This document shows, one piece after another, positions 399-39,698 of a stretch of 50,498 nt of DNA; positions within the stretch are counted from its first letter, which is position 1; the number at the start of each line of letters is the position of its first letter. The notes under the pieces were generated by a model. It was given only the letters and a program-made list of their open reading frames with translations, was not told where the DNA came from and made no database searches. A program made the position numbers and the translations under genes. Source of the stretch: a virus. Location: positions 1 to 50,498 of the IMG/VR virus record IMGVR_UViG_3300020442_000146. The stretch is one strand, 5' to 3'.

Positions 399-399
399 G

Positions 400-1992: not shown

Positions 1993-2973
1993 TTATCCTT
2001 GTGGGTTCATAATTAAGTCGATTGCATCTTCAATACGACCACTCTTTTGCAACCTTTGTTGCTGCTTTCGGCGAGTAGAACCTACAGGATCGGCAACCTT
2101 CTTTGCGCCAGCCTTGACAACAGGTTTGGCTTTCTTGCTCTTAGCTTCTGCCTTTTTCCTGTTTGCCACAATACGTTTATACTTCATCGCATCATTAGCC
2201 ATCTCTATGTAGCGTGCATCTGCGGTTAGAGCGATTTCTTCATCACTAAACCCATACTCACGCCCAACGCCCATCAACGCATCCCAGTGAGCTTTGCTCT
2301 TGCTAGTGTCTGCGAGTTCAGGAATTTTAGCTTTGATTATCTCAGCTTGCTCTGCAAGATATACCCGATGTTCTTCATCGGCTTGCTTTTGCTGCTGTGC
2401 TTGCAATTGTTGCATTTGGTATTGCTGTTGTTGGTACTGTTGCAAATCGGCGTCGTACTTAGCTCTTTGCTCCATATAAGCTATAGGGTCACTCTCAGCC
2501 AAAGTGTGGTCTGGCATTTTGGGTGGTGCCGCAAAACCTTGCTGGGCTTGAGCGTACATTTGTGCGATCTGTTGTTCTCTCTGTGCTATTTCGGCCTGTT
2601 TCTCTTCCAGTTGCTTACGTGTCTGGGCGATCTCCTGAAACCGATTGTTAATTGCACCTTGGCCTGCCGCAGATTGCTTAAGCTGATCTAGTGTCCAATG
2701 CTCTTCTTTGCCGTCAATTTTTACGGGGATGAGATTGTTTTCCTCAGTAGCCTCTACTTCGTCCTCGGTCTCTATATCCACATCTTCGTAATCTTCTTCA
2801 GATGCTTCTAGTTCATCTAACGTATCGCCTTCATCAATTACCTCGTCATCAGTTTCTTCAACTTCTGGTTCAATAATTTCTTCAACTGCTTCTGTTAGAT
2901 TTTCTTCGCCTGTTTCTTCTTGCGCTGGCGCTATGAGTTTTTCTACTGCGCTGTGTAGGTCAGTCGCTTCCAC
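1993..2973 (-). CDS. Putative scaffolding protein (copy 1)
   Basis: A 326-aa protein with a very acidic first 100 residues, a Gln-rich coiled coil at about 125-220 (RKQLEEKQAEIAQREQQIAQ) and a basic Lys/Ala-rich C-terminal segment (KKAEAKSKKAKPVVKAGAKK) before RIEDAIDLIM. An acidic N-terminus, a helical middle and a basic capsid-binding tail, encoded between portal and capsid, is the usual layout of phage scaffolds. The basic tail is almost unchanged in copy 2 while the acidic part varies, consistent with selection on the capsid-binding end. No protease domain is visible. Confidence 0.75.
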   Translation of the reverse strand: MEATDLHSAVEKLIAPAQEETGEENLTEAVEEIIEPEVEETDDEVIDEGDTLDELEASEEDYEDVDIETEDEVEATEENNLIPVKIDGKEEHWTLDQLKQSAAGQGAINNRFQEIAQTRKQLEEKQAEIAQREQQIAQMYAQAQQGFAAPPKMPDHTLAESDPIAYMEQRAKYDADLQQYQQQQYQMQQLQAQQQKQADEEHRVYLAEQAEIIKAKIPELADTSKSKAHWDALMGVGREYGFSDEEIALTADARYIEMANDAMKYKRIVANRKKAEAKSKKAKPVVKAGAKKVADPVGSTRRKQQQRLQKSGRIEDAIDLIMNPQG

Positions 2974-2984
2974 GGTACTGCTCC

Positions 2985-3221
2985 TTATTGTTTACGATCT
3001 AAAAGTGTCTCTGCCATTATAGCGGCGTCAAGTTCCACTTCGATCTTGGTTAATGCACGCAATATTGCGTGCGCCTCTTCGCGTTGCTCAATGTCTTGAG
3101 CGCCGCTAGTCGTAAAAAGCCTGATTTGCTCATTACGAACATCCTGTATGAAATCGCTAAAAGCGGTATCACTTTTTAACCGCTTTGCGTCTTCTGCCTT
3201 TATTCTTGTTTCTACTGTCAA
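2985..3221 (-). CDS. Small conserved protein between scaffold and portal (copy 1)
   Basis: A 78-aa helical, charged protein (MTVETRIKAEDAKRLKSDTA ... AETLLDRKQ). Its start overlaps the portal stop by 4 bp, suggesting translational coupling. It is highly conserved in copy 2 (39709-39945). Its position suggests head assembly; no family recognised. Confidence 0.8.
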   Translation of the reverse strand: MTVETRIKAEDAKRLKSDTAFSDFIQDVRNEQIRLFTTSGAQDIEQREEAHAILRALTKIEVELDAAIMAETLLDRKQ

Positions 3222-5317
3222 ATGCCTGCCATTCTCATCATAGATTCATTGTGCATACGTTCTTTATCTTGCTCTGCTTTTATCTTAGCTAAATCAACAG
3301 CTTGCCCGTACTGACCTGCAAGCGTTGCTGCATCTACATATAGGTCTTGCGCCATCTGATCTCTAGCTAGGTCATCTTTCATCGCCATCTCATGCATTTT
3401 ACGCTGATTTTCCATCTGAGCCTTAGTCATATCAACCTGTGCTTTTGTCTGCGCTTTCATTGCTTCTGCCTGCACCATAGCTTGCGCTGGGTCAGATGGT
3501 TGCTGACCTGCTAATGCTGCTTGTTGCTGTTGCTGCATCTGCAAGAGTTGCATTTCTATCTCTGGCGTAATTGGTGCAAAGTAACGATCTGCGTTTCTAA
3601 TGCCGCTCGATGCTAATATGTCTGCAAGAGTATTGCGGATGTTTGTGAGCGACACTAAACCATTCATAGGGCCATATGTCTGATAGACCATAGTTTGTTG
3701 TTGTAGAGCTAACGACAGAGCGCCCATTTTGTCCTCTTCTCTGCCAGTGCCAAGACCTACGTTAATGCTAACGTCCATATCTATGTCAAACGCTTTTGGG
3801 TCAACAGGTTGGAAGCGCCCGTTCATACGCATCATTGCGCCGTTTTCCATGTTCTTTTGCAGTAATCTTAGCATTAAGCCAAACAAGTCTCTTGCGCCAT
3901 CTGCTAGGTTACGCACCATCACCTCTACTTGCCCTGCTGCGGCTTGCACAGTGGCCTGCACAGCAGCTTTAGTTGTAGACTGCATTGCATCAGGGTCTAG
4001 CCCCATAGACGCTCTGGTAACGCCTGTCTTGCCCTCTACAAGCTGATCTAGGTATGTAAGTGCGCTTAGTGTTTGCCCTGCGGTAAATGGCACAGCTAAA
4101 TCCTGTACTGCTCCAGGTTGCCTCATACGCACAATCGCGCCAATCTCATTATTTAGCACATCGTCTATGTTAACTGAGCCATCAACTATACCAACGCGAG
4201 GATTGTTTGTCATAGCTACGTTATCGAGTATGCCACGCAATATGCTTGTTGCTGCATCTTGATCATCAATCACAATGTCTGCAATGCTTCTGCCATAAAA
4301 AGTGTGCGGCTCTGGATCAACTTCAAATTTTGCAAAAGGTATTTCGTCTGCGAGTTCGTAATCTAGCAGTCTGTACTTTGTCCCGCCGCACAAGAACTTG
4401 TGTAACACAGCTACGCCTGTGCCGTCCACATCCATACGCATATATGCTTCTGTTACAGTAACCTGACGCATAGATGGGTCAGAGCTTGTTTCGTTAAAAT
4501 CATCTTCATAACCTTGTCGCTCAATACGTTCTGCCTCAGTCATCTCTGTGCCTGCGTCAAAGCTATCTAGGTCAAGCACTATCTCTGGATCAAAGCCCAT
4601 TGCAATCAAATCACCTGCACGCATTTCTGTGCGGTGAGCAATAACATGAGCATCTTCTAGCGTTCTACAGTTTCTATCTACAAAGAACTCTTCTGGCGGT
4701 ACGCTTTCTATACGAAGCCTGCCTGTTGTTTCTCTGCGCGATACTTTAGCAGAATGAACAGGCGTTTGCACCTCAACGCCTTGCTCATCCATGCTCATTT
4801 CCTGCTCTACTGTATGCTCAAGAACCGTTACGTCATCGTCCTGCACTAAAAACGTGTATTCATCATCGTCTAGATTAGTGTAAGTATATATCTCTGCGGT
4901 AGGCATTTCTTCCCAATATGCTTTTACTATGCCTTGCTTTTTAATTAACGCATCGTGAAAAGCATCGTTTAGCACTCTGTAGCCGTTGCTTCTCTGAAAC
5001 TCATAATGCACATAATCTGTGGCTTGCTCTGCCATATTCACATCTTCTGGGCCATGCGGCATAAACTCTACAGGCTTTGCAGTGCTTAGAAACACACGCA
5101 TCAATGATGGTTTAATCGCACGCACCGTATCTCGAACCTTAGTAGCGACTACTTTGCTTCGACCGTCCTCGTAGCCTATATCTACTTCGCCATCGTAGTA
5201 ACGCTGCGATCTAATGCGATCTTCTGATATTTCGCTTTCTACAAAGTCTACCGCATCGTCTATAGCGTTCTGAACAATAGTTTCTATCTCGCGTTCTGTT
5301 TTAGCTTTGAGTTCCAT
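3218..5317 (-). CDS. Portal protein, P22-like (copy 1)
   Basis: A 699-aa protein. Start chosen at MELKAKTEREIETIVQNAID, preceded by GGAG and matching the copy 2 start; the frame is open upstream to 5350. Hallmarks are an N-terminal region with RYYDGEVDIGYEDGRSKVVA, a central PEEFFVDRNCRTLEDA, the wing/stem region with DQDAATSILRGILDNVAMTN, and a Gln/Ala/Met-rich C-terminal coiled coil (about 590-690) like the P22 portal barrel. The portal is the dodecameric DNA channel and the docking site for terminase and adaptor. Confidence 0.88.
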   Translation of the reverse strand: MELKAKTEREIETIVQNAIDDAVDFVESEISEDRIRSQRYYDGEVDIGYEDGRSKVVATKVRDTVRAIKPSLMRVFLSTAKPVEFMPHGPEDVNMAEQATDYVHYEFQRSNGYRVLNDAFHDALIKKQGIVKAYWEEMPTAEIYTYTNLDDDEYTFLVQDDDVTVLEHTVEQEMSMDEQGVEVQTPVHSAKVSRRETTGRLRIESVPPEEFFVDRNCRTLEDAHVIAHRTEMRAGDLIAMGFDPEIVLDLDSFDAGTEMTEAERIERQGYEDDFNETSSDPSMRQVTVTEAYMRMDVDGTGVAVLHKFLCGGTKYRLLDYELADEIPFAKFEVDPEPHTFYGRSIADIVIDDQDAATSILRGILDNVAMTNNPRVGIVDGSVNIDDVLNNEIGAIVRMRQPGAVQDLAVPFTAGQTLSALTYLDQLVEGKTGVTRASMGLDPDAMQSTTKAAVQATVQAAAGQVEVMVRNLADGARDLFGLMLRLLQKNMENGAMMRMNGRFQPVDPKAFDIDMDVSINVGLGTGREEDKMGALSLALQQQTMVYQTYGPMNGLVSLTNIRNTLADILASSGIRNADRYFAPITPEIEMQLLQMQQQQQAALAGQQPSDPAQAMVQAEAMKAQTKAQVDMTKAQMENQRKMHEMAMKDDLARDQMAQDLYVDAATLAGQYGQAVDLAKIKAEQDKERMHNESMMRMAGI

Positions 5318-5318
5318 T

Positions 5319-6944
5319 CTATTGCTCCTGTCTAAAATCTTGTGCAGCACCTAGCGCTGGCGCTACTCTTGTAGGTCTAAATCTCATTGGGGCCTGACCT
5401 GTTGCAAGCAATCTATCCAAATCGCGTAATTGCATTTTTACCCCAGTGTCAGATGCAAATTTAGACACTAATCCAAGACCAGATATTGCTAAAGTTGTAG
5501 GCTCTATAAAAGCAGCAACACCTGCTATAGACCTTTGAAGACCATTTGTAGTTGGGGATAGCGTTCCTAATCTTTTTAAAACATCATCAGAAACAGTTCC
5601 GTCTAATATTGCGCTCATTGCGTCAAGCTCAGATTTATCAAAAAAGTTACGTTGCTTTTTGTTATTTAATATACGACCCACAGCCCTTCTATAACCAGCA
5701 ATAACATCTCCAGATGTTGTGGTTTTTGCTGTAACTTCTGCGCTGTCTAAAGCATCTCGTAAAAGTTCAGATTTTTTGTATCTTTTATTTGCAACTCTTG
5801 CAGCGTTTAAAAGCCTACTTCCTTGCAAATTTGTGTCTATTAAATCATCGATCTCATCAATAACTGATCTTAATCTTGGATCGTAAGCGTTTACACCAGA
5901 ACCCTTACCAACTCTATACACATTGTATATTTCAGTTCTTAGAGTGTCTAATTCTCTTAAAGTTGTTCCACTAGCAACATCATCAACCCTAGCAAGAGCT
6001 TGTGTAATGTGAGTATCAATCTGTGGATTATACTTAGTTAAGCCCTCTCCTCCAGCAAAAAGCTTTGCTCTGGAGTTTTCAGCTATTCCTACCATTTGAT
6101 CTGAGCTAAAAGAAACACCTGCGTCATCAGCAGCCTTATATCCCGCATTTTTAGCTGATCTTAAATTTTCACTTGAAGGCTTGATTATTGATGTTGCAAG
6201 GGCCGTGTCGAGAGTTCTGTTTCCTGTATTCATTTGTTTAGATAATATTCCAGGCCGTACATAAGCATCAATTGCACGAGCAGGCATATTAACAAATTTA
6301 GAAGCTGCTGCTGGACTTGCTAATGCCCCAATAAATCTAGCAGCGCCTTCTGCCTTTGTACCTTCAGCCACCTGCCCTGCTGCTTCACTGCCTAAACCAG
6401 CAACTGTTGCTGTTCCTAAGGCTTGTTTGGATAAACCAGCCGATTCTACTGCTTGCGCTGCTTTTTGCGCTCTTGTTAAATTAGCAGCCCTTGAGCCTAC
6501 TTTCGCCAACTTTCCTGCTGCGCCTAAAGTTCCGCCACCACCCACAAATTCTGCTGCTGTGCCTGCAAATTTTCCTGCTCTTGTTTGGGCTTCATAATCA
6601 TCAAGTGGGCTAAGACCTCTGAGAAACTCTCCTGTTTTTGTCTGAAACACAGGAATGTCTTCGCCAACATCATATCCTAAATATTGAAGTGCTTCCTGAC
6701 CACCTCTTGCTATGCCTCTCGCCGCCATAAAGGGCAGTTCTGCTGTTCCTATAGCGCCTCTAACAAGGCCACTTGTTAATGATCTACCAACATCTTCAAC
6801 TACGCCAATTTCTCTTTGTGTTTCCTCTTTCGGTGCAGCTTGAGTTACACCAAGACGCTCCTTAACAACACGCTGGATCACAGAGCGGTCTGTGCCATCA
6901 GGAAACTGTAAAATTGTGCCATCTGGAAGTTCAGCCTCAATCAT
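5319..6944 (-). CDS. Putative internal virion / DNA-ejection protein, 541 aa
   Basis: It starts IEAELPDGTILQFPDGTDRS, an N-terminal motif common in large phage virion proteins, then has long Gly/Ala-rich amphipathic or hydrophobic stretches (about 55-105 and 135-220) and a helical C-terminal domain. Encoded just upstream of the portal gene, where short-tailed phages keep ejection proteins. The position-equivalent gene in copy 2 (882 aa) is unrelated in most of its sequence, so this is a mosaic site. Ejection function is inferred from position and composition. The stop is 1 bp from the portal ATG. Confidence 0.7.
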   Translation of the reverse strand: MIEAELPDGTILQFPDGTDRSVIQRVVKERLGVTQAAPKEETQREIGVVEDVGRSLTSGLVRGAIGTAELPFMAARGIARGGQEALQYLGYDVGEDIPVFQTKTGEFLRGLSPLDDYEAQTRAGKFAGTAAEFVGGGGTLGAAGKLAKVGSRAANLTRAQKAAQAVESAGLSKQALGTATVAGLGSEAAGQVAEGTKAEGAARFIGALASPAAASKFVNMPARAIDAYVRPGILSKQMNTGNRTLDTALATSIIKPSSENLRSAKNAGYKAADDAGVSFSSDQMVGIAENSRAKLFAGGEGLTKYNPQIDTHITQALARVDDVASGTTLRELDTLRTEIYNVYRVGKGSGVNAYDPRLRSVIDEIDDLIDTNLQGSRLLNAARVANKRYKKSELLRDALDSAEVTAKTTTSGDVIAGYRRAVGRILNNKKQRNFFDKSELDAMSAILDGTVSDDVLKRLGTLSPTTNGLQRSIAGVAAFIEPTTLAISGLGLVSKFASDTGVKMQLRDLDRLLATGQAPMRFRPTRVAPALGAAQDFRQEQ

Positions 6945-9525: not shown

Positions 9526-10177
9526 GTATCCTCGTTATAGCTAATGTTGATGCAGGGGAAGCAGGGCTAAACGCTGTTGCTGCTGTCGCATTTAAACTAC
9601 CGCTCGTACTATCTACAGCCCATTTCATCTCAATATAATCATTCGCAGCAAGCTCAAGTAAAAACGATCTTGATGCTGTCATAATACCACCGTTGTTATG
9701 AATAGTTTTTATTACAGTCATATTAGCTATATTTGTGCCGTTCTTAGCGGGCCAAAAATAAAACTTAACGTCACTTGCGGTGCTTGAAGTTATTTCTGCG
9801 GTAAAGCTAAGTAGATATTCACCTTTTTCTTCAAACACAATACGCTCTGGATTTGTGCCATCACGATCTATTTTATACTTATTTGTCGGCGCATCATAAG
9901 TAATAGAATAAGCTGTATCTGCTGATGCAGCCGTTTGGCTTGCTGTTCTCATAAGCTTAACGTGACCGCCTTCCATGACAATCTGCCTAAACTCATTATC
10001 ATAACTTACGACAGGCCACTCATTTACGTCATCCCAAAGAATAACGCCATTTTCACTTGGATTATCTTGAGATGTTTTAAAGTATAACTTGCCTAAATTT
10101 CTTTGCAGATATGCGTTTAACTGCCTACCCCACTGAGCAAGGTCAGGGCCAATAGTAGGTAAAATAGGAACCGACAT
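9518..10177 (-). CDS. Putative tail-tip/fibre protein with variable C-terminus, 219 aa
   Basis: Residues 1-70 (MSVPILPTIGPDLAQWGRQL ... LGKLYFKTSQDNPSENGVIL) are shared with the 116-aa gene of copy 2. Residues ~75-219 are a beta-rich domain unrelated to that copy (SFTAEITSSTASDVKFYFWP), resembling C1q-like trimer heads in composition. A constant N-terminus plus an exchangeable tip is typical of receptor-binding proteins. It shares one base with the next gene. Confidence 0.65.
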   Translation of the reverse strand: MSVPILPTIGPDLAQWGRQLNAYLQRNLGKLYFKTSQDNPSENGVILWDDVNEWPVVSYDNEFRQIVMEGGHVKLMRTASQTAASADTAYSITYDAPTNKYKIDRDGTNPERIVFEEKGEYLLSFTAEITSSTASDVKFYFWPAKNGTNIANMTVIKTIHNNGGIMTASRSFLLELAANDYIEMKWAVDSTSGSLNATAATAFSPASPASTLAITRIHA

Positions 10178-12066
10178 TATCTAGTTCCCCCTGCAACAGT
10201 TTCTAACCTCATAACGCCCACACGCCAATCGGCAAGCTTTGCACCCTCTACCTTCATGCGTATCTGCCTACCGCTAAATCTAGCGTCCGTAGGATTATTA
10301 GGCGCAAATGGGCCATGCGTTGTTTCTGTATCGTTTGGATGAAAACGTGTTTTGAACGTCATATTCACATCGCCCTGCGTTTTTTCGTCAGGAATAACAG
10401 ATGTAACCTTGGCTATGTTTTCGCCAGTGCCGATAGATATTGGCCCAGTTTCTGCAAAAACAGAGCCGCTATCTACGTTTAAACCAACCTCATGCTCTTT
10501 TATGTTTGCATGTGTTGTATCCCAATCAGCCATGAATGGGTATCTAAATACGCCCCTCGGAACACCTGATGTTCTTGATAACTCGCCAATCATCCAATGA
10601 TTTTCGTTGTAATCATAAGCAACGTAACGATCTATTTCTGAACTGCTCGATGATGGGTAAAACCACCAAACCTCGCCATATTGCGGTATGCCCATCGCCC
10701 ATATTTTAGATTGCTGCGCTACGTTTATATCATCAAAAATATAATCATGCACATCACACTTAATAGGCTGCACTGTGTTACCATTGAATAGAAAAAAGTT
10801 TTCCTGCCCAATAAAAAATACACCGCTATCTGTATCTACAGCCGCACGACTTGTTACAACGCCGCATGACGCGCCAACACGCTCAAAGCCATATACATAG
10901 GGCGGTCCTGTATATCGAGCTGTGTGAGCGTCTGTATCTGTTAGTATTAACGTCTGGCCTCTCGTTCTTATAGCTTGCATGATCTGCCCAGATGTTTGTA
11001 GCTCTATGTCTCCTGCTTCATTTGTTGCGGCAGCAGTCCATGTATTTCTGTCTTCTCGGTCACACCAAGCGATCTTACGTCCGTTGCCGCCAGACCCTAA
11101 CGCAAAAATAAAACGCTCTTCTGTCACGATTAAGCCAAGATTATTTGTTGGCGCGTTTGTAATTGGCGTTGCTACCACAGCTAATTTTAAAGATGTGTCT
11201 GTCACATTTACATTAGGCTCTGCACCTGACGCTGGGTAAATTTGTATCGTAACGCCCGTATCGTCTGTATCAAATCTATAAAAACTATTGCCAACTGGCA
11301 AAGTTTCATCAAGCAAAACAGTTGTTGTCGTTGTGCCAACAACCTTAACTTTTAATGAAGGTATCGTATCTGGGTCTGCGTCATTGTCTGGGTCAACAAC
11401 TGAGATAGTAAAATGATACTTAGCGCCGCTCGTTAAACCAGTAATTGCTTGCTCTAGATTAGCAGCCGTTGTGCCTGTCCACTCTGCTTGACCAGAGTTA
11501 ATAGCCCAACCAGTGCCTAGCGTCCAACCTGTGCCTACAGTAAAGCTATTGTTTGTGATTAGCTCAGAGCCGCTAACAATATCTAAACCCCACTCAACAA
11601 GCCTACCATCATCATAATGACAGCCAACCAATATCTCGCCAAAATTATCTAATGTCCAATACGTTGCAGGATCAGGTATCGCGTTTGATAATTGCTGTAT
11701 AGGTGTTCCCCAGAAGCCAGTGCCAAAAGTGCCTTTACCGTAACCTGATGAAACTGCCGCATCCACCCTGCCTGTTGCCAAACTTGCAGGAGTTATATCG
11801 TACACATTTCCCCCGCCTGTCATTGCGATTAATGCTTCGTGAGAACCGCCAGACAACCATGTGCTTTGGTTAAGAGCTTCCCAAGTGTGCATACCCCTAA
11901 TCGGCTGCGTGGTAAAATCTTGCTTGCGATCACGCCAACCACCAATAGGTCTAAGCGAACCATCAAGCCATCTTACTAGGCTTCCCTCGCGCCACCTACC
12001 AGATTGCTCATAGTCCGTACCTATTCTGTAAAATCCTGATGGTATATCTAGAGGTACTAAAGCCAT
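10177..12066 (-). CDS. Conserved tail structural protein with inserted beta-sandwich (copy 1)
   Basis: A 629-aa protein. The N-terminus (MALVPLDIPSGFYRIGTDYE) and the later WALKS-free core (EERFIFALGSGGNGRKIAWC, VRTRGQTLILTD) look like a beta-propeller-like phage tail protein of short-tailed phages. Residues ~165-298 (ELITNNSFTVGTGWTLGTGW ...) look like an inserted carbohydrate-binding-type beta-sandwich. Same length and strongly conserved in copy 2, so it is a core part of the tail. Exact position (stopper, hub or knob) is uncertain. Confidence 0.72.
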   Translation of the reverse strand: MALVPLDIPSGFYRIGTDYEQSGRWREGSLVRWLDGSLRPIGGWRDRKQDFTTQPIRGMHTWEALNQSTWLSGGSHEALIAMTGGGNVYDITPASLATGRVDAAVSSGYGKGTFGTGFWGTPIQQLSNAIPDPATYWTLDNFGEILVGCHYDDGRLVEWGLDIVSGSELITNNSFTVGTGWTLGTGWAINSGQAEWTGTTAANLEQAITGLTSGAKYHFTISVVDPDNDADPDTIPSLKVKVVGTTTTTVLLDETLPVGNSFYRFDTDDTGVTIQIYPASGAEPNVNVTDTSLKLAVVATPITNAPTNNLGLIVTEERFIFALGSGGNGRKIAWCDREDRNTWTAAATNEAGDIELQTSGQIMQAIRTRGQTLILTDTDAHTARYTGPPYVYGFERVGASCGVVTSRAAVDTDSGVFFIGQENFFLFNGNTVQPIKCDVHDYIFDDINVAQQSKIWAMGIPQYGEVWWFYPSSSSSEIDRYVAYDYNENHWMIGELSRTSGVPRGVFRYPFMADWDTTHANIKEHEVGLNVDSGSVFAETGPISIGTGENIAKVTSVIPDEKTQGDVNMTFKTRFHPNDTETTHGPFAPNNPTDARFSGRQIRMKVEGAKLADWRVGVMRLETVAGGTR

Positions 12067-12068
12067 TT

Positions 12069-12725
12069 TTATGTCTTCATAATGTAAGCCAAAGCATAGT
12101 ATGGCGGTCTGTTTTCGTGAGAGCTACCACTACCAGTGGAGCCAGTTGTTTTACTAAGAGATCCATTTGGGTTGTAAGTATTTGAGTTATAGTCAATATC
12201 AATACCAGCAGATGGAAAAGCACTCTGTAAAACATAACTATCTGTATAGCTGTGTGTGTGAGATGGTATCTGACTGGTTGTCAATGTTACGCTATCTGCA
12301 CCGCCAGTGTCGCCAACATTATAAGTTCCTGAACTATCGGCGTCTGCATGTACAACAAATTTAGCTGTTAAGTTAGGTGTTCCATTTGTACCATCACATA
12401 AAGCCCAACCAGTAGGTATTGTTGCGACTGTACCGCTCCATAAAATTATACCGCCAACAGGAAATAATAATGATGAGGACGTTTGACCTGCTAAGAGGTT
12501 TATTTCTGTTGCCGTTGCTGTAACGCCATCCATAATGTTTAGCTCAGCCGCCGTTGATGTAACCGCAGCGCCGCCAATCTTCCAAGAGCCAGCCGTTAGA
12601 TCTGGCTCTATTGTGCCGCTCGTTCCGTTTACAGCGTCCGTTATTGTATCTAAAGCCGTGTTGAGCGTTGTACCCCAAGTATTCTCGCTCGATCCCACGA
12701 CTGGCTTGGTAACTGAGATTGCCAT
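12069..12725 (-). CDS. Tail collar-domain protein (copy 1)
   Basis: A 218-aa protein. Residues ~1-90 are an Ala/Thr-rich fibre shaft (AAELNIMDGVTATATEINLL, a common fibre repeat). Residues ~92-218 are a phage tail collar domain: GGIILWSGTVATIPTGWALC, DGTNGTPNL, one HTH pattern (PSHTHSY) and the terminal HENRPPYYALAYIMKT. In this fold the His pairs can bind metal in a trimer. Copy 2 has several more GGAHTHT blocks. Confidence 0.85.
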   Translation of the reverse strand: MAISVTKPVVGSSENTWGTTLNTALDTITDAVNGTSGTIEPDLTAGSWKIGGAAVTSTAAELNIMDGVTATATEINLLAGQTSSSLLFPVGGIILWSGTVATIPTGWALCDGTNGTPNLTAKFVVHADADSSGTYNVGDTGGADSVTLTTSQIPSHTHSYTDSYVLQSAFPSAGIDIDYNSNTYNPNGSLSKTTGSTGSGSSHENRPPYYALAYIMKT

Positions 12726-18950: not shown

Positions 18951-19709
18951 TTAACCCAAGGCTATAGCAAAGGCCAATGCCTCTCCTGCCCTATCGACAT
19001 CGAGGTTGACCCTAGTTTGTTCTGCATCTGTCACGCTTAACGCTCCAGTTACAGTTACATCACCAACAGAATTAATACCGCCACCTGACGTTATCGCACC
19101 TGTTGACGTTATAGCCCCACCAGAGATGGAACCATTTACTGTTACGCTATCAGAGGTAATACCCCCAGTAACCGTAACATCTGCACTAGACGTAAGCCCA
19201 GCACAGGAAATCGCGCCGCTTGCCGTAATCAAACCAGTTACAACAGAGCTAGACGTTATTTGATTTGTAATCGCAAGACTGTCAGCAGCAAGCTCGCCAG
19301 AAACCGTCAAGCTCGCTGTCGTAAAACCACCAGTAACAGTTAAGTCACCATTAACAGTAACGCCATCTGTCGTTGTTTCTAACTTCTTGCTATTGTTAAA
19401 GAATAACTCAACTGCGCCATTCTCATCCATTGTAATAAACGTAGGACTAGACGCATCAACAGCGCCCAACGTAATATTATCGCCGCGAATGTATAACTCG
19501 CCAGTGTTGTTTAATATATATGCGTCGCTTGCCGTAGAGTTGTGATAAATCTGTAAGTCACTATCGTCGCCAAAATTAACAATGGCATCATCGTCAACAG
19601 TGCCGCCAGTCTTGCCAATCTTGTCGTTGTTTAGATTGTCAAAATTAGCGTCAACTTCATCATGTGTAAGCGGAGCGCCCTTGACTGCACGTTTTACAAT
19701 AGTTGCCAT
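18951..19709 (-). CDS. Tail fibre protein with repetitive beta shaft, 252 aa
   Basis: The N-terminus (MATIVKRAVKGAPLTHDEVD ANFDNLN) is a well-known fibre attachment motif in marine phages; then a beta domain with DSDLQIYHNSTASDAYI and a C-terminal series of short SLTVSGELAADS-like repeats (residues ~125-235, Val/Thr/Ser/Gly). The shaft repeats suggest a trimeric beta-helix. It is encoded immediately after the adaptor, as expected of the main fibre. Confidence 0.8.
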   Translation of the reverse strand: MATIVKRAVKGAPLTHDEVDANFDNLNNDKIGKTGGTVDDDAIVNFGDDSDLQIYHNSTASDAYILNNTGELYIRGDNITLGAVDASSPTFITMDENGAVELFFNNSKKLETTTDGVTVNGDLTVTGGFTTASLTVSGELAADSLAITNQITSSSVVTGLITASGAISCAGLTSSADVTVTGGITSDSVTVNGSISGGAITSTGAITSGGGINSVGDVTVTGALSVTDAEQTRVNLDVDRAGEALAFAIALG

Positions 19710-20329
19710 TAGTACGCCCTCACCCTCATGCGCCGACCAGTACCGCCAAACTTAGCTTGGTCACTTTCACGATTTATACCATCAATTGAAGATTGATACA
19801 ACGCAGCCCATGTTGTTGTGCGATTATCTTCCTGCAAATAAGGCGCAGAATGAACAAGTGACCCATATAAATAAACATCAGGAAAATTAGTAAGAATAGC
19901 ATTGGTTGTCTGTGACGCGCTCAAAGACGGTATCTTTGCATAATAATTTAACTCTATGCCGTAACTACCATCTGGCGTTGGGTATATTTCTATCTCACCC
20001 TGCGTAATAGAATAAAAACTAGGCTTGCCAGATGTATCCAGGTTATCCCTGCGGCGCTGCTGCATCTCAAACTGAGAAATAAGCTCAATTGGCCTATAGT
20101 CACCTGTCTCAATATGCGCCCTAATTGGCTCAAGAAAATCAGTCGGTAAAGCATTATATTGAGAACTAATCGTAGCAGACGCCCTGTTCTCCATGCGCCA
20201 ATGCCTAACCTTACGGTTCATGTCAGTTTCAGCCATCTTAATAAAATCAGGTATAACTGAGGTTAAGTCACTGCGATTTAAAAAATCCGCAACACTAGCT
20301 TTTAGTTCGTCATAAGTTGATAACGCCAT
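19709..20329 (-). CDS. Head-tail adaptor protein, SU10/P22 gp4-like
   Basis: A 206-aa protein. It starts MALSTYDELKASVADFLNRS DLTSVIPDFIKMAETDMNRK, the characteristic helical start of short-tailed-phage adaptors, followed by LPTDFLEPIRAHIE and a C-terminal YGSLVHSAPYLQEDNR. It binds below the portal and connects the tail machine. Encoded next to the main fibre and the small basic proteins; it shares a base with the fibre start. Confidence 0.8.
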   Translation of the reverse strand: MALSTYDELKASVADFLNRSDLTSVIPDFIKMAETDMNRKVRHWRMENRASATISSQYNALPTDFLEPIRAHIETGDYRPIELISQFEMQQRRRDNLDTSGKPSFYSITQGEIEIYPTPDGSYGIELNYYAKIPSLSASQTTNAILTNFPDVYLYGSLVHSAPYLQEDNRTTTWAALYQSSIDGINRESDQAKFGGTGRRMRVRAY

Positions 20330-20596
20330 CTAACAATTCCATCTTCTACGCGCAGCCTTACCACGCTCACCTGTCCAGCCTCTAGACCTAGCGCAAAAAG
20401 ACTTCTTACGAGCCTTCTCTTTTGCAGTTAAATTTTTCTTTTTCGTTACAGCCGTTTTAAGCTTTGATCCAGGGTTAGCACGCCTATGCGCCGCTACACC
20501 CTTTGCAGTCATACCAGCGCCCTCTTTTACAGAGCGGTAATTACGACCCTTGCCTTTGGTCGTCTTCCGTATAGCTTTCTCAGGCTTTCGTGGCAT
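20330..20596 (-). CDS. Very basic small protein, 88 aa
   Basis: Over a third Lys/Arg (KPEKAIRKTTKGKGRNYR; AVTKKKNLTAKEKARKKSFC; TGERGKAARRRWNC), with two Cys. Similar Lys/Arg-rich proteins (DUF6321-like pattern, FCARSRGW) are common in marine phages. A nucleic-acid-binding or packaged-DNA role is plausible, though not shown. Adjoins the 281-aa gene by 1 bp. Confidence 0.75.
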   Translation of the reverse strand: MPRKPEKAIRKTTKGKGRNYRSVKEGAGMTAKGVAAHRRANPGSKLKTAVTKKKNLTAKEKARKKSFCARSRGWTGERGKAARRRWNC

Positions 20597-21441
20597 TAGG
20601 GGCGAAAACCTTTATACATAGGCCCATCAAGTGTTGTTGGCGGCAATAAGTAATTATATACTTGATTCATTGCTGACGGTCCTAACCTAGCCTCATTTGC
20701 GTTAGGCCCATACATAGCTGGATCAAGCAAAGCAATTCTCTCAGAATATAAACGTAAGAGGGGGGCCATGTCCTCTTCAGTTCCGCCAGCTTGCCTAACA
20801 GCGTCTATGCGCCTCTGAAGATCAGCTAACGCCATATCTTGGGTTGTAACTCCAGATGGATCAGCAGGCATAGAGCCAGCAGGCTGCTGACCAAAACTCA
20901 TACTTGGCATTGACCCTGCTGGCTGTTGACCAAACTGCATACTATTATCAGATCTAGCCATAGGCATATCATAAGTTGGCCCAGCAAATGGGTTTGGAGT
21001 GTTATTAAAAGGCACGCCACTAACCTCATCTGGCATAACTGGTGGCGTATTGTTAAATGGAACACCACTCACTTCATCTGGCATGGTTTGCGTTGGCCTA
21101 ATTCTTGGCCTCACTGGGCCACCAGCCACTGCTTGCTGAATAGGGGATGTTGTAGGCCCACCAAAAGCACGCTCACGCTGAGAGCCATACGGACTAATAC
21201 CAATGTTATTCAATATCTGGCTAAGAGGTCCACCAGCAAACTCATCACCACGACCATCACGGTCTCCACCGTCAATCATATCTATAAAGGCAGGAACGTA
21301 ACGCCTGTTTGCCTCATCGAAATACCCAAACTTACCATCAGCATTGGCCTTCTTACGATCAGCAGCAGACGTATTTTCAAACTTACGGCTACCCTTGTCC
21401 TTGCCCATACCCTTCTTTTTAATCTCTTTAGGTTCAGCCAT
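20596..21441 (-). CDS. Pro/Met/Gln-rich virion-region protein with internal duplications, 281 aa
   Basis: A basic N-terminus (KKKGMGKDKGSRKFENT), then a disordered middle with two exact duplications: MPDEVSGVPFNNTP twice (residues ~120-155) and FGQQPAGSMP twice (~171-195), and a helical C-terminus (TQDMALADLQRRIDAVRQAG). Disorder with repeats suggests a linker or tether in the virion. Located between the basic mini-proteins and the adaptor. No family recognised. Confidence 0.68.
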   Translation of the reverse strand: MAEPKEIKKKGMGKDKGSRKFENTSAADRKKANADGKFGYFDEANRRYVPAFIDMIDGGDRDGRGDEFAGGPLSQILNNIGISPYGSQRERAFGGPTTSPIQQAVAGGPVRPRIRPTQTMPDEVSGVPFNNTPPVMPDEVSGVPFNNTPNPFAGPTYDMPMARSDNSMQFGQQPAGSMPSMSFGQQPAGSMPADPSGVTTQDMALADLQRRIDAVRQAGGTEEDMAPLLRLYSERIALLDPAMYGPNANEARLGPSAMNQVYNYLLPPTTLDGPMYKGFRP

Positions 21442-21560
21442 TACTTCTTACCCTTCTTTTTTCTGCTCAATTTTCTTAAATCTGCACCTGTGATCTTCTT
21501 ACGTGGCGGAGCTACGGCTGCAAGCTTTTTTTGCTTTGGGCTATATTTTTTATACGGCAT
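21441..21560 (-). CDS. Small Lys-rich protein, 39 aa
   Basis: MPYKKYSPKQKKLAAVAPPR ... then SRKKKGKK. The stop and the next ATG share TAATG, giving a one-base overlap. The form M-P-Y-K-K-(Y/F)-x-KQ-KKLA-AVAPPR-x-KIT is seen in small proteins of many marine phages. Function unknown; charged nucleic-acid binding is conceivable. Confidence 0.72.
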   Translation of the reverse strand: MPYKKYSPKQKKLAAVAPPRKKITGADLRKLSRKKKGKK

Positions 21561-21790
21561 TACTTTTTACCCCTCTTACTCTTCGTTTTCCAACTTATCC
21601 TAGCTGGACCTGTCTTACGTTTAGCCGCCCTCTTAGCAGAGGCGGAACTTGCCTTACTTTTAGGACGGCAAGCAGGGTAAGGTCTACCTTTATCTTTCTT
21701 GCCGCTCCTACCGCACTTTTTGCCAGTTTTAACATCGCGCCAATCTTCCTTAAACCACTTGGTCAAACCACCTTTTGGCTTTCTAGCCAT
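21560..21790 (-). CDS. DUF5872-like basic protein, 76 aa
   Basis: MARKPKGGLTKWFKEDWRDV KTGKKCGRSGKKDKG, then RPYPACRP. The pattern GL-KWF-EDW-DV...KKCGR...YPACRP matches DUF5872 proteins of marine phages as I recall them; the two Cys (CGR, ACRP) may bind a metal. Stop and next start share TAATG. Confidence 0.75.
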   Translation of the reverse strand: MARKPKGGLTKWFKEDWRDVKTGKKCGRSGKKDKGRPYPACRPKSKASSASAKRAAKRKTGPARISWKTKSKRGKK

Positions 21791-21951
21791 TAGTACCTAC
21801 CACCGCGCTTCTTATATTCTCTCACCAACCATGCATTCGCATACGCAGAAGGATAAACCTTAAACTTACGCTTTGCCGCAGCCTTTACCCTAGCGTAAAG
21901 AGCAGGGTTTTTTGGCGTTGGGCTAGACGATTTTTTAGCTTTTTTTGCCAT
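21790..21951 (-). CDS. Small basic protein, 53 aa
   Basis: MAKKAKKSSSPTPKNPALYA RVKAAAKRKFKVYPSAYANA W.. ends KKRGGRY. The ARVKAAAKRKFKVYPSAYAN segment is a conserved motif of small proteins of marine phages. Chained by TAATG overlaps to neighbours on both sides. Confidence 0.75.
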   Translation of the reverse strand: MAKKAKKSSSPTPKNPALYARVKAAAKRKFKVYPSAYANAWLVREYKKRGGRY

Positions 21952-22046
21952 TATTTACCAAACTTTTTAGCTAAACACTGACCTGCTCTTTTGCACCCCT
22001 CTTTTGTGGGGCAACCAGGGCATGGTTTAAACTTGTTTCCATGCAT
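21951..22046 (-). CDS. Mini zinc-binding-type protein, 31 aa
   Basis: MHGNKFKPCPGCPTKEGCKR AGQCLAKKFGK. Four Cys as C-x2-C-x5-C-x5-C in a Lys-rich peptide, which could bind one metal. The start is fixed by the TAATG junction with the upstream gene. Too short for standard gene callers. Confidence 0.6.
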   Translation of the reverse strand: MHGNKFKPCPGCPTKEGCKRAGQCLAKKFGK

Positions 22047-22084
22047 TACTTTTTCCTTCCGCCTTTTTTCTTTCCATAGCCCAT
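22046..22084 (-). CDS. Micro-ORF MGYGKKKGGRKK (12 aa)
   Basis: The ATG at 22084 has a strong Shine-Dalgarno (AAAGGAGATAGTC) and its TAA overlaps the next start as TAATG. It may encode a Gly/Lys peptide or act chiefly as a leader that loads ribosomes for the chain of small genes. Both fit; the RBS is clear. Confidence 0.45.
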   Translation of the reverse strand: MGYGKKKGGRKK

Positions 22085-22115
22085 GACTATCTCCTTTTTT
22101 ATGCAACGTAACACA

Positions 22116-23522
22116 TTATGCGATCCCACGCAAATTGCGTTTTATCTCCCCTCGCCAACTATTAAACGCACCAGATAACGCCGTTGCAGCGTCACTCGCC
22201 ATCGTCAAACACAAAGCATCCGCTAAATCAGGCGACTGCAAACCACGCTTACGCATCTCATCCTTACTCTCAGCCTTCATCTTGCCTGACGATGTAAAAC
22301 TATACCTAATACCCGTTAACTCAGCCAGCAACTGATCATCTTTCGGTAACTTACACGCACGATCCTCAAACCAAGCTTTCGTCTTAAACCACAACTCACT
22401 CCGCAAATTTAAATATGTGCCACCCATACTAGGCGCTTCTGCAACGTTTACGCCGCGCACTGGCAAGCCTAACTCGCGCAACCTATCAACCACACCAGAA
22501 CCTATACCAATGCTATCCACAAGTATCTCTCTGGGCTGCTTAGACGGCGCTAAAGCCTCATATTCAGCCACAACCCTACCCACAGTCTGCATCAAGTCCA
22601 ACCCAGACCAAGACCTAATCTCAGTCACAACAGAACCTTGACGCTTACACAGCGCCGTTTTGTCATTACCAAACCGACTAACGTCCAAACCCCACACACT
22701 TGGCAGGTCTTCATCACCCTTAATATCACGATGTATTGCAGTCTCTACTAAATGAAACGGTATAATCGTGTCATCATCTGCTTGAGGAAACTCGCCTAAC
22801 ACTCTGATCCTAAACGCATTACTGTCTTCGCCATAGCGCAACTTCATCTCTTCAACAAACTCGTCACTCACCAAAGGACTATCCACACATGACCAACGCC
22901 TTGTCCACCAGCTACCAGCCATGCGCGTTTGACTCTCAAAAAACGTGCCACTAGACCTAGTGGGGTTACTCAACATAATCGTGGTCGCATTATGACCAGA
23001 CATAGAACCAGCAGCAGCCTCAAACACCTGCTCTGGCACACCAGATGCCTCATCAACAATCAACATAACATGCTCAGAGTGTACACCAGCTAACGCCTCT
23101 GGTGTCTCTGCACGACTTGTCCTAGCAGAAATAAACATCTCACTCGGCGCAGCAGTATGCTCAACACGGTCAGACTTCACGTTTAACACCTCGTGAAACG
23201 CTTTAGGCAACTCATTGATCCACCGCTTCATCTCAGCAAACAATGCATCAAACAACTGGCTAGACGTAGGGGCAGTCACCACAACCTTATTCGGATAATG
23301 CATCAAAAAATACCACAACATAGCCCAAGACGCCGCCGTAGACTTACCCGTACCATGCCCAGAACGAATGCTAATCTTACGCTCACCAGACGCTATGGCT
23401 TCCAAAAACTCAGCCTGGTAATCCAAAGGCTCAACACCTAACACCTCACGCACAAACAATGTAGGCTTCCTAGCGTAACGCTGGGTAAACTCTATCATCG
23501 TGTTCTGCGATAAATCATTCAT
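22116..23522 (-). CDS. terL: Terminase large subunit
   Basis: A 468-aa packaging motor. Start at MNDLSQNTMIEF (23522), with AAGG 9 bases upstream. N-terminal ATPase: Walker A SGHGTGKS (about residues 54-61), Walker B VMLIVDEA (about 152-159; D157, E158), coupling motif SNPTRSSG. C-terminal RNase H-fold nuclease: GLDVSRFGNDKTAL (D280, D287) and ILVDSIGIGSGV. Pairs with the small subunit gene, which it overlaps by 8 bp. Confidence 0.92.
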   Translation of the reverse strand: MNDLSQNTMIEFTQRYARKPTLFVREVLGVEPLDYQAEFLEAIASGERKISIRSGHGTGKSTAASWAMLWYFLMHYPNKVVVTAPTSSQLFDALFAEMKRWINELPKAFHEVLNVKSDRVEHTAAPSEMFISARTSRAETPEALAGVHSEHVMLIVDEASGVPEQVFEAAAGSMSGHNATTIMLSNPTRSSGTFFESQTRMAGSWWTRRWSCVDSPLVSDEFVEEMKLRYGEDSNAFRIRVLGEFPQADDDTIIPFHLVETAIHRDIKGDEDLPSVWGLDVSRFGNDKTALCKRQGSVVTEIRSWSGLDLMQTVGRVVAEYEALAPSKQPREILVDSIGIGSGVVDRLRELGLPVRGVNVAEAPSMGGTYLNLRSELWFKTKAWFEDRACKLPKDDQLLAELTGIRYSFTSSGKMKAESKDEMRKRGLQSPDLADALCLTMASDAATALSGAFNSWRGEIKRNLRGIA

Positions 23523-24003
23523 GCTCAACAACCTTCATCTTGCGCAAAGCATCTAAATGCAAATCACCAATGTTAATATTAATCTGCTGCTGGTTGCGCC
23601 CACCATACTTCTCAGGGTTCCAATTAGACGCCGCTAAATTGTGCTGACCAACCTTTTGCTTGAGTAAACCCAAGTCAACCTGACTAACGTTAGCCTCACT
23701 AATGTCACGATCCCCATTCAAGGCTTCCATAATCTCGCGCTGCCTGCGCTCACTAACCTCAGAGATAACCTCAAAGCCAGCCTCAAAATGAGCATCAGCC
23801 GCCGCACGCCTAGCCTCGTCTATCGCAGCCGTTAACTCAGGATCACGCAAAATCATATTACGCAAAGAGCCAGCATGAACATCCAAATCTTTCGCTAAAC
23901 TAGAAATAGAGTTACCTTCTAACACCCACTCACGAAGATACTCACCGCCACCCCTGCGCTTAATCTCAGCAAGCGTTCTTTTTACCATCGGCCTACCAGC
24001 CAT
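23515..24003 (-). CDS. terS: Terminase small subunit
   Basis: A 162-aa protein. Start chosen at MAGRPMVKRTLAEIKRRGGG with GAGGTG 5 bases upstream, though an in-frame ATG lies 12 bases earlier. Residues ~5-65 form a helix-turn-helix-like DNA-recognition domain (GNSISSLAKDLDVHAGSLRN), followed by a coiled coil. Binds the packaging site and delivers DNA to TerL. It heads the late operon. Confidence 0.82.
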   Translation of the reverse strand: MAGRPMVKRTLAEIKRRGGGEYLREWVLEGNSISSLAKDLDVHAGSLRNMILRDPELTAAIDEARRAAADAHFEAGFEVISEVSERRQREIMEALNGDRDISEANVSQVDLGLLKQKVGQHNLAASNWNPEKYGGRNQQQININIGDLHLDALRKMKVVEHE

Positions 24004-24024
24004 ACTGCACCTCATTTTTGCAGG

Positions 24025-36735: not shown

Positions 36736-37137
36736 CTACATTCCATCGTTTTTAGTAAACTGTAAGGTTTTTTCTATCACGGCTATGCGTGATTGTAGCT
36801 TAATGATCTCCATCATATGAGCAGCCATGCCGCCCAAATCTTCGTTGATCATCTCAACATCTTCCCAAAGCTCATCGTCAGCCTCTTCCATATCGTCATA
36901 GAACTCTGCAAGAATGTCTATTATTTCTTGTAAATCCTCTTGGTTTTTCTGCACATCCCTAATTAAATTAGTTCTGTCAGTTGCATTATTCTCAATAGTA
37001 AGAACATTTACCTGCTCTGTTAGGCTTTCAATAACAGAAGCTTGCTGAGAGGCATACCATATGCCACCGCCCACGGTACTGACTATCGCCACTACTGCAC
37101 TTGCAGCAACAGCTATATTTACCTTGGGCAAGTCCAC
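36736..37137 (-). CDS. Membrane-anchored coiled-coil protein (copy 2)
   Basis: A 133-aa complete copy of the gene cut at the window start. One TM near residues 8-28 and an acidic coiled coil after it. The start here is GTG (ATG in copy 1). Ends 2 bases before the 151-aa gene. It spans the 36740-36816 junction without disruption. Spanin-like role inferred. Confidence 0.75.
   Translation of the reverse strand: MDLPKVNIAVAASAVVAIVSTVGGGIWYASQQASVIESLTEQVNVLTIENNATDRTNLIRDVQKNQEDLQEIIDILAEFYDDMEEADDELWEDVEMINEDLGGMAAHMMEIIKLQSRIAVIEKTLQFTKNDGM
36740..36816. repeat. 77-bp exact direct repeat, copy 2 (internal)
   Basis: This is the partner of bases 1-77. To its left is the lysis cassette and to its right the diverged second copy of the head and tail genes. 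Confidence 0.85.
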
Positions 37138-37138
37138 G

Positions 37139-37429
37139 CTAGTAACTACCTTCCCAAACCCTTAGTTTAGCAAACTCATTACTCATAAGTTTTCTTTTTA
37201 GCACTTCTTTAACTGCACCTGTATCTGACCAGCTAACGCCAGCCTCTTTTAGCCACACGCCAAGTAATGCCATATCGACATTACCAACGTGCTTATAATC
37301 AGAACCAAAGCTATTATCAGAATGTTGCCTTGCGTGTTCAACATCCTTCAGCATTTCGTTAGCGTCATGCGTTTTCTTGATGATTAATTTATCATCTTCA
37401 AACTTATATGACTCGCTAATCTTAGCCAT
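37139..37429 (-). CDS. Conserved phage protein (copy 2)
   Basis: A 96-aa protein beginning MAKISESYKFEDDKLIIKKT. Very similar to the gene at 400-702 from the middle to the end (GSDYKHVGNVDMALLGVWLK). The extra N-terminal residues of copy 1 (SHSTK) are absent. The frame is open upstream to 37465. Function unknown. Confidence 0.78.
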   Translation of the reverse strand: MAKISESYKFEDDKLIIKKTHDANEMLKDVEHARQHSDNSFGSDYKHVGNVDMALLGVWLKEAGVSWSDTGAVKEVLKRKLMSNEFAKLRVWEGSY

Positions 37430-37673
37430 CTTCCCAAGCCTCATTCTCTGGTGTGCTAGGATCATCAGCTTTTAGTGTGCCATCATCGTTTCTAGCACGC
37501 TTCTTTTTTGCTGTTTTCTTTGCAGGCTTTGGGTCTGCTTTTAATATTTCAAAAGCTGTGGGCTTTAACACCATAATCTTTTTTACTTCAGCTTCAGGCA
37601 AATCAACTTCATCACCGCCCTTAACGATACCTTTAGATGTTGAGATGCTTCTATCTTTTACTAATACCTTCAT
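37422..37673 (-). CDS. Small head-region protein with Lys-rich tail (copy 2)
   Basis: An 83-aa protein. MKVLVKDRSISTSKGIVKGG DEVDLPEAEVKKIMVLKP, then an acidic end (ENEAWEDG). The Lys-rich linker is three residues shorter than in copy 1. Overlaps the next gene by 8 bp, as in copy 1. Confidence 0.78.
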   Translation of the reverse strand: MKVLVKDRSISTSKGIVKGGDEVDLPEAEVKKIMVLKPTAFEILKADPKPAKKTAKKKRARNDDGTLKADDPSTPENEAWEDG

Positions 37674-37691
37674 TTCTTTCTCCTTTTAACA

Positions 37692-37713
37692 GTAGGGGCA
37701 AAACTGCCCCTAC
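37692..37713 (-). terminator. Hairpin downstream of the major capsid gene (copy 2)
   Basis: Same 9-bp stem and loop as at 973-994, 11 bases after the capsid stop. On the minus strand it is followed by TGTTAAAAGG. Conservation between diverged copies supports function. Confidence 0.6.
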
Positions 37714-37724
37714 CTAATATCTTA

Positions 37725-38681
37725 TTATGAAGTTGTGTTATCAGCAATGATGCCGTTTGCAGCTTCATTTTTAGCGCAAAGTGTAAGCTCAGTAACGATT
37801 TGTCTCTGAGTGTTATCACCAGTTTTTGCAAGCTCAGTGTTTTTAGTTGGACGTAGTGTCGCAACTTCCCACTTATCATCTTGCATGATGAAAACGTCAC
37901 GGCTTCTGTTCTCGCGGCTAGGCATGAACTCAATGGTTCCCCACGGAGTTGTGTACACTGCCAAGCTTTTGATAACACGCTCGTCAGATGCTTGCACTTG
38001 TGAACGCTGGTTGTTGTTACCAGTAAAGCCGAGTGCCACGTTCATTTGAAACGCAGACAGATACACAGTGTCAGGCTCCCCACCGTTCTCCCAAATTGAT
38101 TGCATAACTGTGTCAAATTTGGTTTGTGAAAACGCTGTTGGAGTACCATCGTCTGTTCGAGCGTCAGTGCCGTCACCAGTTGGATTTGCACCAGAGTTAC
38201 CTGATTGAAAATCAACATTTGTTTTAATCCAAGACGGTGCGCCTGCCAACTCTCTAGCAGTCGATGCGTTACCAGCCACTTTTGCATTATTGTCAAATAG
38301 CGCTTTCTCTATATCGAGTTTTTGCTCTTTGGCAATTTTTACAATTTGGTAGGCCATCTCACGCTGTCTTCCAGCCTTGTTAAGACCTTCGTCAGTGTCA
38401 GATACGATTACCGCATTTTTGAAGATTTGTGTTCGGTTGTTAAGACGAACAGTTGCAACAGCCGCTTGAGCAGTAGTTGCGTCACCTTCAATATGTGCGT
38501 TTGCAGCACTGTTACGAAGTGTATCAGTCTGCCATTCTACCAATGTATTATTGGCTGTTGTTTTACCACACTTAGAAAAAAATGGTGTGGCCTCTGGAGT
38601 AATATTAGTAATAATATCGCTCAAGTCTTCTCTGATACCTACCTGATCATAGCTATCAAAGGTATTTGCTGGTTGTGCCAT
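37725..38681 (-). CDS. Major capsid protein, SU10/DUF5309 type (copy 2)
   Basis: A 318-aa protein, the same length as copy 1. Differences cluster in surface-like residues (PEATPFFSKCGKTTANNTLV vs PEETPFHTKSRKTTARNTLV) and the loop at 215-225, while the core and the C-terminus (NRSRDVFIMQDDKWEVATLR) are the same. Functionally equivalent capsid of a related strain. Confidence 0.88.
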   Translation of the reverse strand: MAQPANTFDSYDQVGIREDLSDIITNITPEATPFFSKCGKTTANNTLVEWQTDTLRNSAANAHIEGDATTAQAAVATVRLNNRTQIFKNAVIVSDTDEGLNKAGRQREMAYQIVKIAKEQKLDIEKALFDNNAKVAGNASTARELAGAPSWIKTNVDFQSGNSGANPTGDGTDARTDDGTPTAFSQTKFDTVMQSIWENGGEPDTVYLSAFQMNVALGFTGNNNQRSQVQASDERVIKSLAVYTTPWGTIEFMPSRENRSRDVFIMQDDKWEVATLRPTKNTELAKTGDNTQRQIVTELTLCAKNEAANGIIADNTTS

Positions 38682-38720
38682 TATCTTGTCCTTTCAACGG
38701 CTTATAGCATTTTGTTAATG

Positions 38721-39698
38721 CTAAGTTTTCATAATTAAGTCGATTGCATCTTCCATTCGACCTGTCTTTTGCAATTTTTGAAATTGCTTACGCTTTAGTG
38801 AGCCTTCTGGATCAGCTACTTTCTTAGCACCAGCTTTTACAACAGGTTTGGCTTTCTTGCTTTTAGCTTCTGCCTTTTTGCGATTTGCAACAATACGTCT
38901 AAACTTCATAGCATCGTTAGCCATTTGGATATAACGTGCATCGGCGGTGGCTGCGATCTCTTCATCACTAAAGCCATATTCTTTGGCGCTATTCATAAGT
39001 GACTGCCAGTGAGCTTGACTCTTTTCTGGATCAGCCAGTTCAGGAATTTTACCTCTGATTATTTCGCCTTGTTCTCTAACAAAAGCTTGGTGCTGCTCAT
39101 CAGCTTGCTGCTGTTGTTGTTGTTGTAGTTGTTGCATTTGCACTTGCTGCTGCTGGTAACTCTGCATATCAGCATCATATTTTGCCCTTTGCTCCATATA
39201 AGCAATGGGGTCACTCTCTGCCAGAGTATGATCTGGTAACTGAGGTTGTGACATAAAACCTTGCTGCTGTGCCTGATTGTACATCTGAGTTATCATTTGC
39301 TCACGTTGAGAGATTTCAGCAGCTTTTTGCTCAACTTGTTTTCGAGCTTCTGCCACTTCTTGAAACCTCTTGTTTATTGCGCTTTGACCTGAATAACTTT
39401 GCTTTAACTGGTCTATTGTTACCGTTTCTTCCTTGCCGTCAGACTTGACAGTGTAATACTCTGGCTCGACAGTTTCTTCTTCAATGTCAGTTGCTTCAAT
39501 ATCAGTATCTAATAATTCTTCATCAGATACCTCTAGCTCATCAAGCTCATCAGTTTCCTCAACTGCTTCCACTTCAACCTCTTCGACCTCTGGAGCTACA
39601 GTTGTTTCTTCCTCAACTTGATTAGTTTCGCCTGTTTGTTCTTGCGCTGGCGCTATGATTTGTTCAATCGCGCTTTCTATACTGTCAGTCGTTTGCAC
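38721..39698 (-). CDS. Putative scaffolding protein (copy 2)
   Basis: A 325-aa protein. The acidic first ~95 residues have diverged from copy 1; the Gln-rich coiled coil and the basic tail (NRKKAEAKSKKAKPVVKAGAKK) are conserved. Ends RMEDAIDLIMKT. Scaffold role as in copy 1. Confidence 0.75.
   Translation of the reverse strand: MQTTDSIESAIEQIIAPAQEQTGETNQVEEETTVAPEVEEVEVEAVEETDELDELEVSDEELLDTDIEATDIEEETVEPEYYTVKSDGKEETVTIDQLKQSYSGQSAINKRFQEVAEARKQVEQKAAEISQREQMITQMYNQAQQQGFMSQPQLPDHTLAESDPIAYMEQRAKYDADMQSYQQQQVQMQQLQQQQQQQADEQHQAFVREQGEIIRGKIPELADPEKSQAHWQSLMNSAKEYGFSDEEIAATADARYIQMANDAMKFRRIVANRKKAEAKSKKAKPVVKAGAKKVADPEGSLKRKQFQKLQKTGRMEDAIDLIMKT

Follow-up and report, generated by a model that had tools for sequence, protein, structure and literature searches.

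A TAATG-linked chain of small, mostly basic protein genes between the terminase and head-tail adaptor genes of a marine phage, and its modules in related and unrelated phages

The window analysed here is the whole 50,498-nucleotide stretch of the viral record IMGVR_UViG_3300020442_000146, and all features of the locus described below lie on its minus strand. The gene of an Sf6-like terminase small subunit (terS, 23515..24015; PHROG 1482, E 1.6e-7; PF20901, E 3e-6) forms the upstream neighbourhood of the large subunit gene terL (22116..23522, 468 aa; PHROG 2, E 6e-45; PF03237), which is followed by a chain of seven ORFs. A ribosome-binding site, AAGGAG (22091..22096), stands 6 bases 5' of the first start codon and is present in most of the TerL relatives. 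The chain encodes, in order of transcription, a Gly/Lys-rich leader protein of 12 aa (22046..22084), a 31-aa protein with four cysteines arranged as CxxC...C...C (21951..22046), a 53-aa protein (21790..21951), a 76-aa protein (21560..21790), a Lys-rich 39-aa protein (21441..21560), a non-basic 281-aa protein (20596..21441) and an 88-aa protein (20330..20596). The 281-aa product is highly variable in length, its counterparts spanning 213-351 aa in most relatives. The TAG stop of the 88-aa ORF directly abuts the ATG of the downstream gene, a SU10-type head-tail adaptor (19709..20329; PF24175, E 9e-38), and the cassette is therefore found in a head context, flanked by the TerL and adaptor genes. 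The preliminary description had given the same order of seven ORFs after terL and a strong ribosome-binding site at 22096, and both were found as described; it had most of the ORFs joined by TAATG overlaps, and in fact all six internal junctions are TAATG. The record itself is repetitive: positions 1-5331 resemble 36740-42057 and positions 10029-12128 resemble 47908-50007, at a spacing of about 37 kb and with 78-79% identity, and the portal gene and a virion structural gene are each present twice. The record amounts to about 1.37 genome lengths and is probably chimeric, combining two related phages. The seven-ORF chain is present once in the window despite these repeats.

When ATG ORFs of at least 12 aa linked by TAATG were counted, the longest chain on the minus strand comprised 7 ORFs, starting from 22084, and the longest on the other strand 2, while no chain exceeded 3 in 60 first-order Markov shuffles. 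TerL was then used in one scan of viral contigs, which yielded 80 loci, and the place flanking terL was filled by the same kind of chain in most of them. A terL tree was built with 63 loci out of the 80 TerL loci and the window; those left out were cut by contig ends, had no adaptor start, had fewer than three ORFs or had an incomplete terL. The junction count took in 67 distinct loci, in which TAATG was found at 206/300 junctions and TGATG at 2/300. Among 128 distinct joints, 72 read AARAARTAATG, and in 118 the second base behind the ATG was C; Lys codons usually stand before the joint, and Ala or Pro after it. The first clustering of small ORFs had merged the low-complexity ones into one group (c0), and later counts were made by text patterns and HMMs.

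The reading frames of the chain are conserved. The pN/pS ratio was 0.19 for leaders of 12-24 aa (13 distinct sequences), 0.24 for the 31-aa family including fusions (26 sequences), 0.14 for the 53-aa family (10 sequences), 0.07 for the 76-aa family (10), 0.12 for the 39-aa family (33 sequences), 0.11 for the 88-aa family (27) and 0.41 for the 281-aa family (27 sequences), as compared to 0.12 for TerL (25 sequences). Most changes within the families fall on third codon positions, 65% of them among the 13 distinct leaders. As assigned by text patterns, the leader-type sequence and the 31-aa-type Cys protein form a single ORF in 22 of the 63 loci and two ORFs in 8, with the leader alone in 28, the Cys protein alone in 3 and neither in 2. 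Conservation of the frames in relatives, which had been proposed as a check, was thus found in the low pN/pS values across the chain. The reading frames are under purifying selection, the 12-aa one included, and we therefore regard the ORFs of the chain, as far as substitution patterns can tell, as real micro-protein genes. The 12-aa ORF had been described as either a micro-protein or a ribosome-loading leader; its conserved sequence and its in-frame fusion to the Cys protein speak for the former, and a mere ribosome-loading leader is unlikely because a leader that forms the N-terminus of a fused protein is protein-coding sequence. No Pfam or PHROG matches were found for the 31-, 39- and 281-aa products. 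A conserved 63-aa non-basic ORF, starting MFTAFVLLCAQNYCFA, lies within the chain of many relatives (L054-L081, e.g. L080:2397-2588); it begins 4 bases past the previous stop and resembles a secreted or membrane protein, and gene 70 of HMO-2011 resembles it by eye.

Six of the seven products, and not five as counted before, are rich in Lys and Arg, with K+R contents of 26-50%, and the basic composition noted earlier is borne out; the exception is the 281-aa product, with 11% and a net charge of -2. For comparison, K+R across the window's 58 ORFs of 100 aa or more has a median of 10.7% and a maximum of 19.8%. Small size and high K+R, the marks of protamine-like proteins, are found together in the same six products.

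Two neighbouring products of the chain are the halves of one known family. The 53-aa product aligned with positions 1-39 of the 116 positions of PF19197 (DUF5872) at 37.5 bits, above the curated cutoff of 27.5, and the 76-aa product aligned with positions 51-95 at 25.8 bits (E 1.7e-5), which is 1.7 bits under this cutoff; the homologues of the 76-aa product in C72C1 and CRP-7 likewise fall just under it. Outside the window, 104 DUF5872 C-halves were found, and the N-half lies directly upstream on the same strand in 101 of them (336 sequences). The three others comprise two at a contig edge and one in the roseophage CRP-7, whose upstream gene is divergent in sequence and resembles the 53-aa module by eye. 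No single ORF with both halves was found in the phage loci scanned, and together with the adjacency in 101/104 cases this indicates that DUF5872 is used as a two-gene unit by these phages. Pfam models DUF5872 as one protein of 116 positions, whereas the window and the scanned phage loci encode its first and second halves in two adjacent genes. The 88-aa product matched PF19846 (DUF6321) at 46.5 bits, above the curated cutoff of 28.5, and the C-terminal domain of PHROG 10346 (E 5.6e-21). DUF6321 is a free-standing small protein in the window, whereas in the four T4-like cyanophages that were read it forms the C-terminus of proteins 443-529 aa long. Both families are listed as being of unknown function; in the accessible text of open-licence papers, DUF5872 is named by one paper, in a table only, and no naming of DUF6321 was found. 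Solved structures gave no match to the three alignments up to E 1. The AlphaFold2 models were weak, with a mean pLDDT of 64.6 and a pTM of 0.37 for the 88-aa product (helices 31-40, 58-71 and 77-86) and a mean pLDDT of 54.8 and a pTM of 0.35 for the 76-aa product. The interpretation in the preliminary description is in part borne out; absent from it were the identity of two ORFs as the halves of one family and the modular nature of the chain.

The content of the chain changes between close relatives. The nearest relative of the window, L002, has a terL 97% identical, and a basic ORF of 51-58 aa, unrelated to the DUF5872 pair, replaces the pair in it; the similarity between the two breaks at TAATG joints on both sides, as in a clean swap. 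On the tree of 63 terL genes, the DUF5872 pair changed state at least 7 times, the 58-60-aa ORF at least 8 times, and the 51-58-aa ORF and the type of the C-terminal protein at least 11 times each. Whole ORFs are exchanged among the relatives at TAATG joints. The pair was present in 12 loci, the 51-58-aa ORF in 43 and neither in 8, and both were found together in none of the 63; the ORF is thus present in 0/12 loci with the pair and in 43/51 without it (Fisher p 5e-8). This exclusion is weaker than the Fisher p suggests because the loci are related: a kinship-aware comparison gave 6 independent pairs, of which none went in the same direction and about 5 in the opposite one (sign test p 0.06). 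At the DNA level, no collinear relative turned up among isolate phages.

The modules are also present far from this group of loci. The 88-aa product matched 50 isolate-phage records and a C-terminal variant 45, and the DUF6321 domain of ORF137 of the cyanophage S-CREM2 matched 460, mostly of cyanophages. The DUF5872 halves are rarer in isolate phages, with 5 records for the 76-aa product and 1 for the 53-aa product. Among 67 loci that have a DUF5872 C-half but show no terL of close similarity within the stretch fetched, 54 also contain a DUF6321 module in that stretch. Phages of cyanobacteria, pelagibacters and roseobacters all contain such modules, and in several unrelated phages their neighbours are terminase, portal, adaptor or scaffold genes. 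In P12053L, S-CBS2 and HTVC028P they occupy other places of the genome, and Ma-LMM01, a Microcystis phage, encodes DUF6321 among its replication genes. Cellular homologues of the 76-aa product were considered and rejected: genome contigs scanned with its alignment gave only 2 loci, both on MAG contigs and both with the same small modules adjoining, namely DUF6321, both DUF5872 halves and an adaptor gene in L337, and both halves followed by a module of the 58-60-aa type in L338. The L337 contig, from a Porticoccaceae MAG, also has an ORF resembling an HNH endonuclease by eye (L337:3513-3818) between its DUF6321 and DUF5872 genes.

In some cyanophages, the modules are parts of long proteins. Closely behind terS, Syn9 encodes gp114 (443 aa) and S-P4 the "structural protein, T4 GC0119" (529 aa); each of these proteins contains a module of the 53-aa type and ends in DUF6321. 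They thus combine in one chain two modules of the window, where these are separate micro-proteins linked by TAATG. A profile built from 118 sequences of the 53-aa family, the cyanophage members excluded, recovered the cyanophage protein with E 1.6e-8 and gave 50 matches below 1e-3 among 61,794 ORFs, and the profile-profile comparison of the family with the cyanophage module reached 97% (E 2.8e-11). The alignment of the family contains intermediate forms, in which PSAY is invariant, and the 53-aa module and DUF6321 occur together in 40 ORFs. A 213-aa ORF of L247 joins a module of the 51-58-aa type to DUF6321. Part of a 689-aa cyanophage ORF (L330:160-2226) resembles the basic module of 51-58 aa (E 4.5e-4), and because of this the module may occur as a domain as well. 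The WF...KPKC stretch of the cyanophage proteins was tried as a relative of the 76-aa product and rejected, being alike by eye only, with no HMM match below 1e-3 and 7% in the profile comparison.

The direct link to the virion comes from S-CREM2 ORF137 only, a homologue of the 88-aa domain. This protein of 490 aa is encoded between terS and terL, ends in DUF6321 and shares only this C-terminal domain with the window; it is listed among the virion proteins of CsCl-purified particles, with 4 unique peptides that cover 4.1% of its sequence (PMC10665884). The earlier suggestion that the small proteins could sit in the virion gains indirect support from this one cyanophage protein, through the domain that it shares with the 88-aa product. 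S-SZBM1_190 was considered as a second virion-proven relative and rejected; it is a cyanophage virion protein encoded between the terminase genes and carries none of the modules tested. The S-P4 record labels its T4 GC0119 protein as structural, whereas Sullivan et al. described T4-GC119, in the passage concerned, as a hypothetical protein of a mobile cassette (PMC3037559).

The job of these tiny proteins probably concerns the virus particle and its DNA. We see about an even chance that the chain forms a late cassette, coupled in translation, whose basic accessory proteins are interchangeable and work with the DNA as it enters the head or once it is inside. The one strong ribosome-binding site would load ribosomes at the 12-aa ORF, and the TAATG joints would hand them along the chain, so as to give late translation by coupling. 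The basic modules are short and interchangeable, and among relatives whole modules have been gained, lost, split or fused at the joints. Their basic surface may contact nucleic acid, the accessory proteins would probably bind DNA inside the head or on the way there, and at least the DUF6321 part, to judge from the cyanophage homologue, probably stays in the virion. The modules may neutralise DNA charge, help packaging or enter the cell with the DNA. DNA condensation by the cassette proteins, which had also been suggested, is possible. Eukaryotic DNA viruses have small, strongly basic core proteins, among them protamine-like proteins and the DNA-binding virion proteins of chlorella viruses, which have been discussed for a possible neutralisation of DNA charge (PMC6163548; PMC3281028). 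The basic products of the cassette resemble these proteins in composition. Condensation as their main role is opposed by the chlorella virus paper, according to which evidence is lacking for any large contribution of basic proteins to the neutralisation of phage dsDNA, and the dense packing of phage DNA leaves little room for them (PMC3281028).

A wider and more doubtful proposal, which we put forward tentatively, is that of a system of beads, in which TAATG would serve both as translational coupler and as a shared sequence for recombination of micro-genes, and the modules, kept by marine phages as separate micro-proteins or fused into one multi-module virion protein, would be shuffled and would tune the holding of DNA in the head or its delivery from it. 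The role of TAATG in recombination is a proposal only, because Lys-rich C-termini and Ala or Pro as second residues explain part of the consensus.

The internal proteins of T4 are small and basic, are encoded at a variable locus, and travel inside the head to enter the cell along with the DNA. The cassette products resemble them in being small and basic and in their variable locus, and by this analogy they could be ejected proteins for host takeover or anti-restriction, whose gene set changes fast because each counters a host system. The module content differs between very close relatives, alternatives share one slot, and one homologue is virion-associated, all of which would suit such proteins; injected factors of this kind would fit the rapid swapping as well. 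Purifying selection fits them less well: it is strong on each module, where an arms race would be expected to leave a diversifying pattern. It also counts against them that phages of three host groups, the cyanobacteria, pelagibacters and roseobacters, share these modules, and we regard this explanation as unlikely. It is decidedly unlikely that the products are packaging cofactors that work in the cell with the terminase or portal and are not kept in the virion; the modules adjoin the terminase in the window and in several unrelated phages, but they are also placed away from it in others, and S-CREM2 ORF137 was detected in virions. Proteins that are small, basic and contain Cys are frequently RNA-binding, and the Ma-LMM01 homologue lies among replication genes, so late intracellular regulators that bind RNA or ribosomes and stand in a structural operon by chance were considered too; with a homologue detected in virions and no match to a regulatory family found in Pfam or PHROG, they have only a slim chance. 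Chance frames, or a 12-aa leader whose product is irrelevant, as the shortness of 12 codons and the strong ribosome-binding site might suggest, can be dismissed as scarcely credible in view of the conserved frame of the leaders with its low pN/pS and third-position changes, their in-frame fusion to the Cys protein in relatives and a chain length far above that of the shuffles.

DUF5872 and DUF6321, two widespread viral domains, can now be assigned genomic neighbours, a relation to each other as partners and a place of action that can be tested. One group of phages has these modules as tandem micro-genes and another has them as domains of one protein, and this makes gene splitting, fusion and swapping directly traceable. 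No description of this TAATG-linked cassette was found in the accessible text of open-licence papers. The protein content of very common marine phages is undercounted, because the annotation of isolate genomes misses some such ORFs or places a gene in a different frame. Among homologues of the small modules, the annotated frame is a different one at CRP-2 gp69 (L161 2323-2511) and P60 gp45 (L167 7001-7162), and SIO1 encodes one that carries no annotation (L173 6001-6213).
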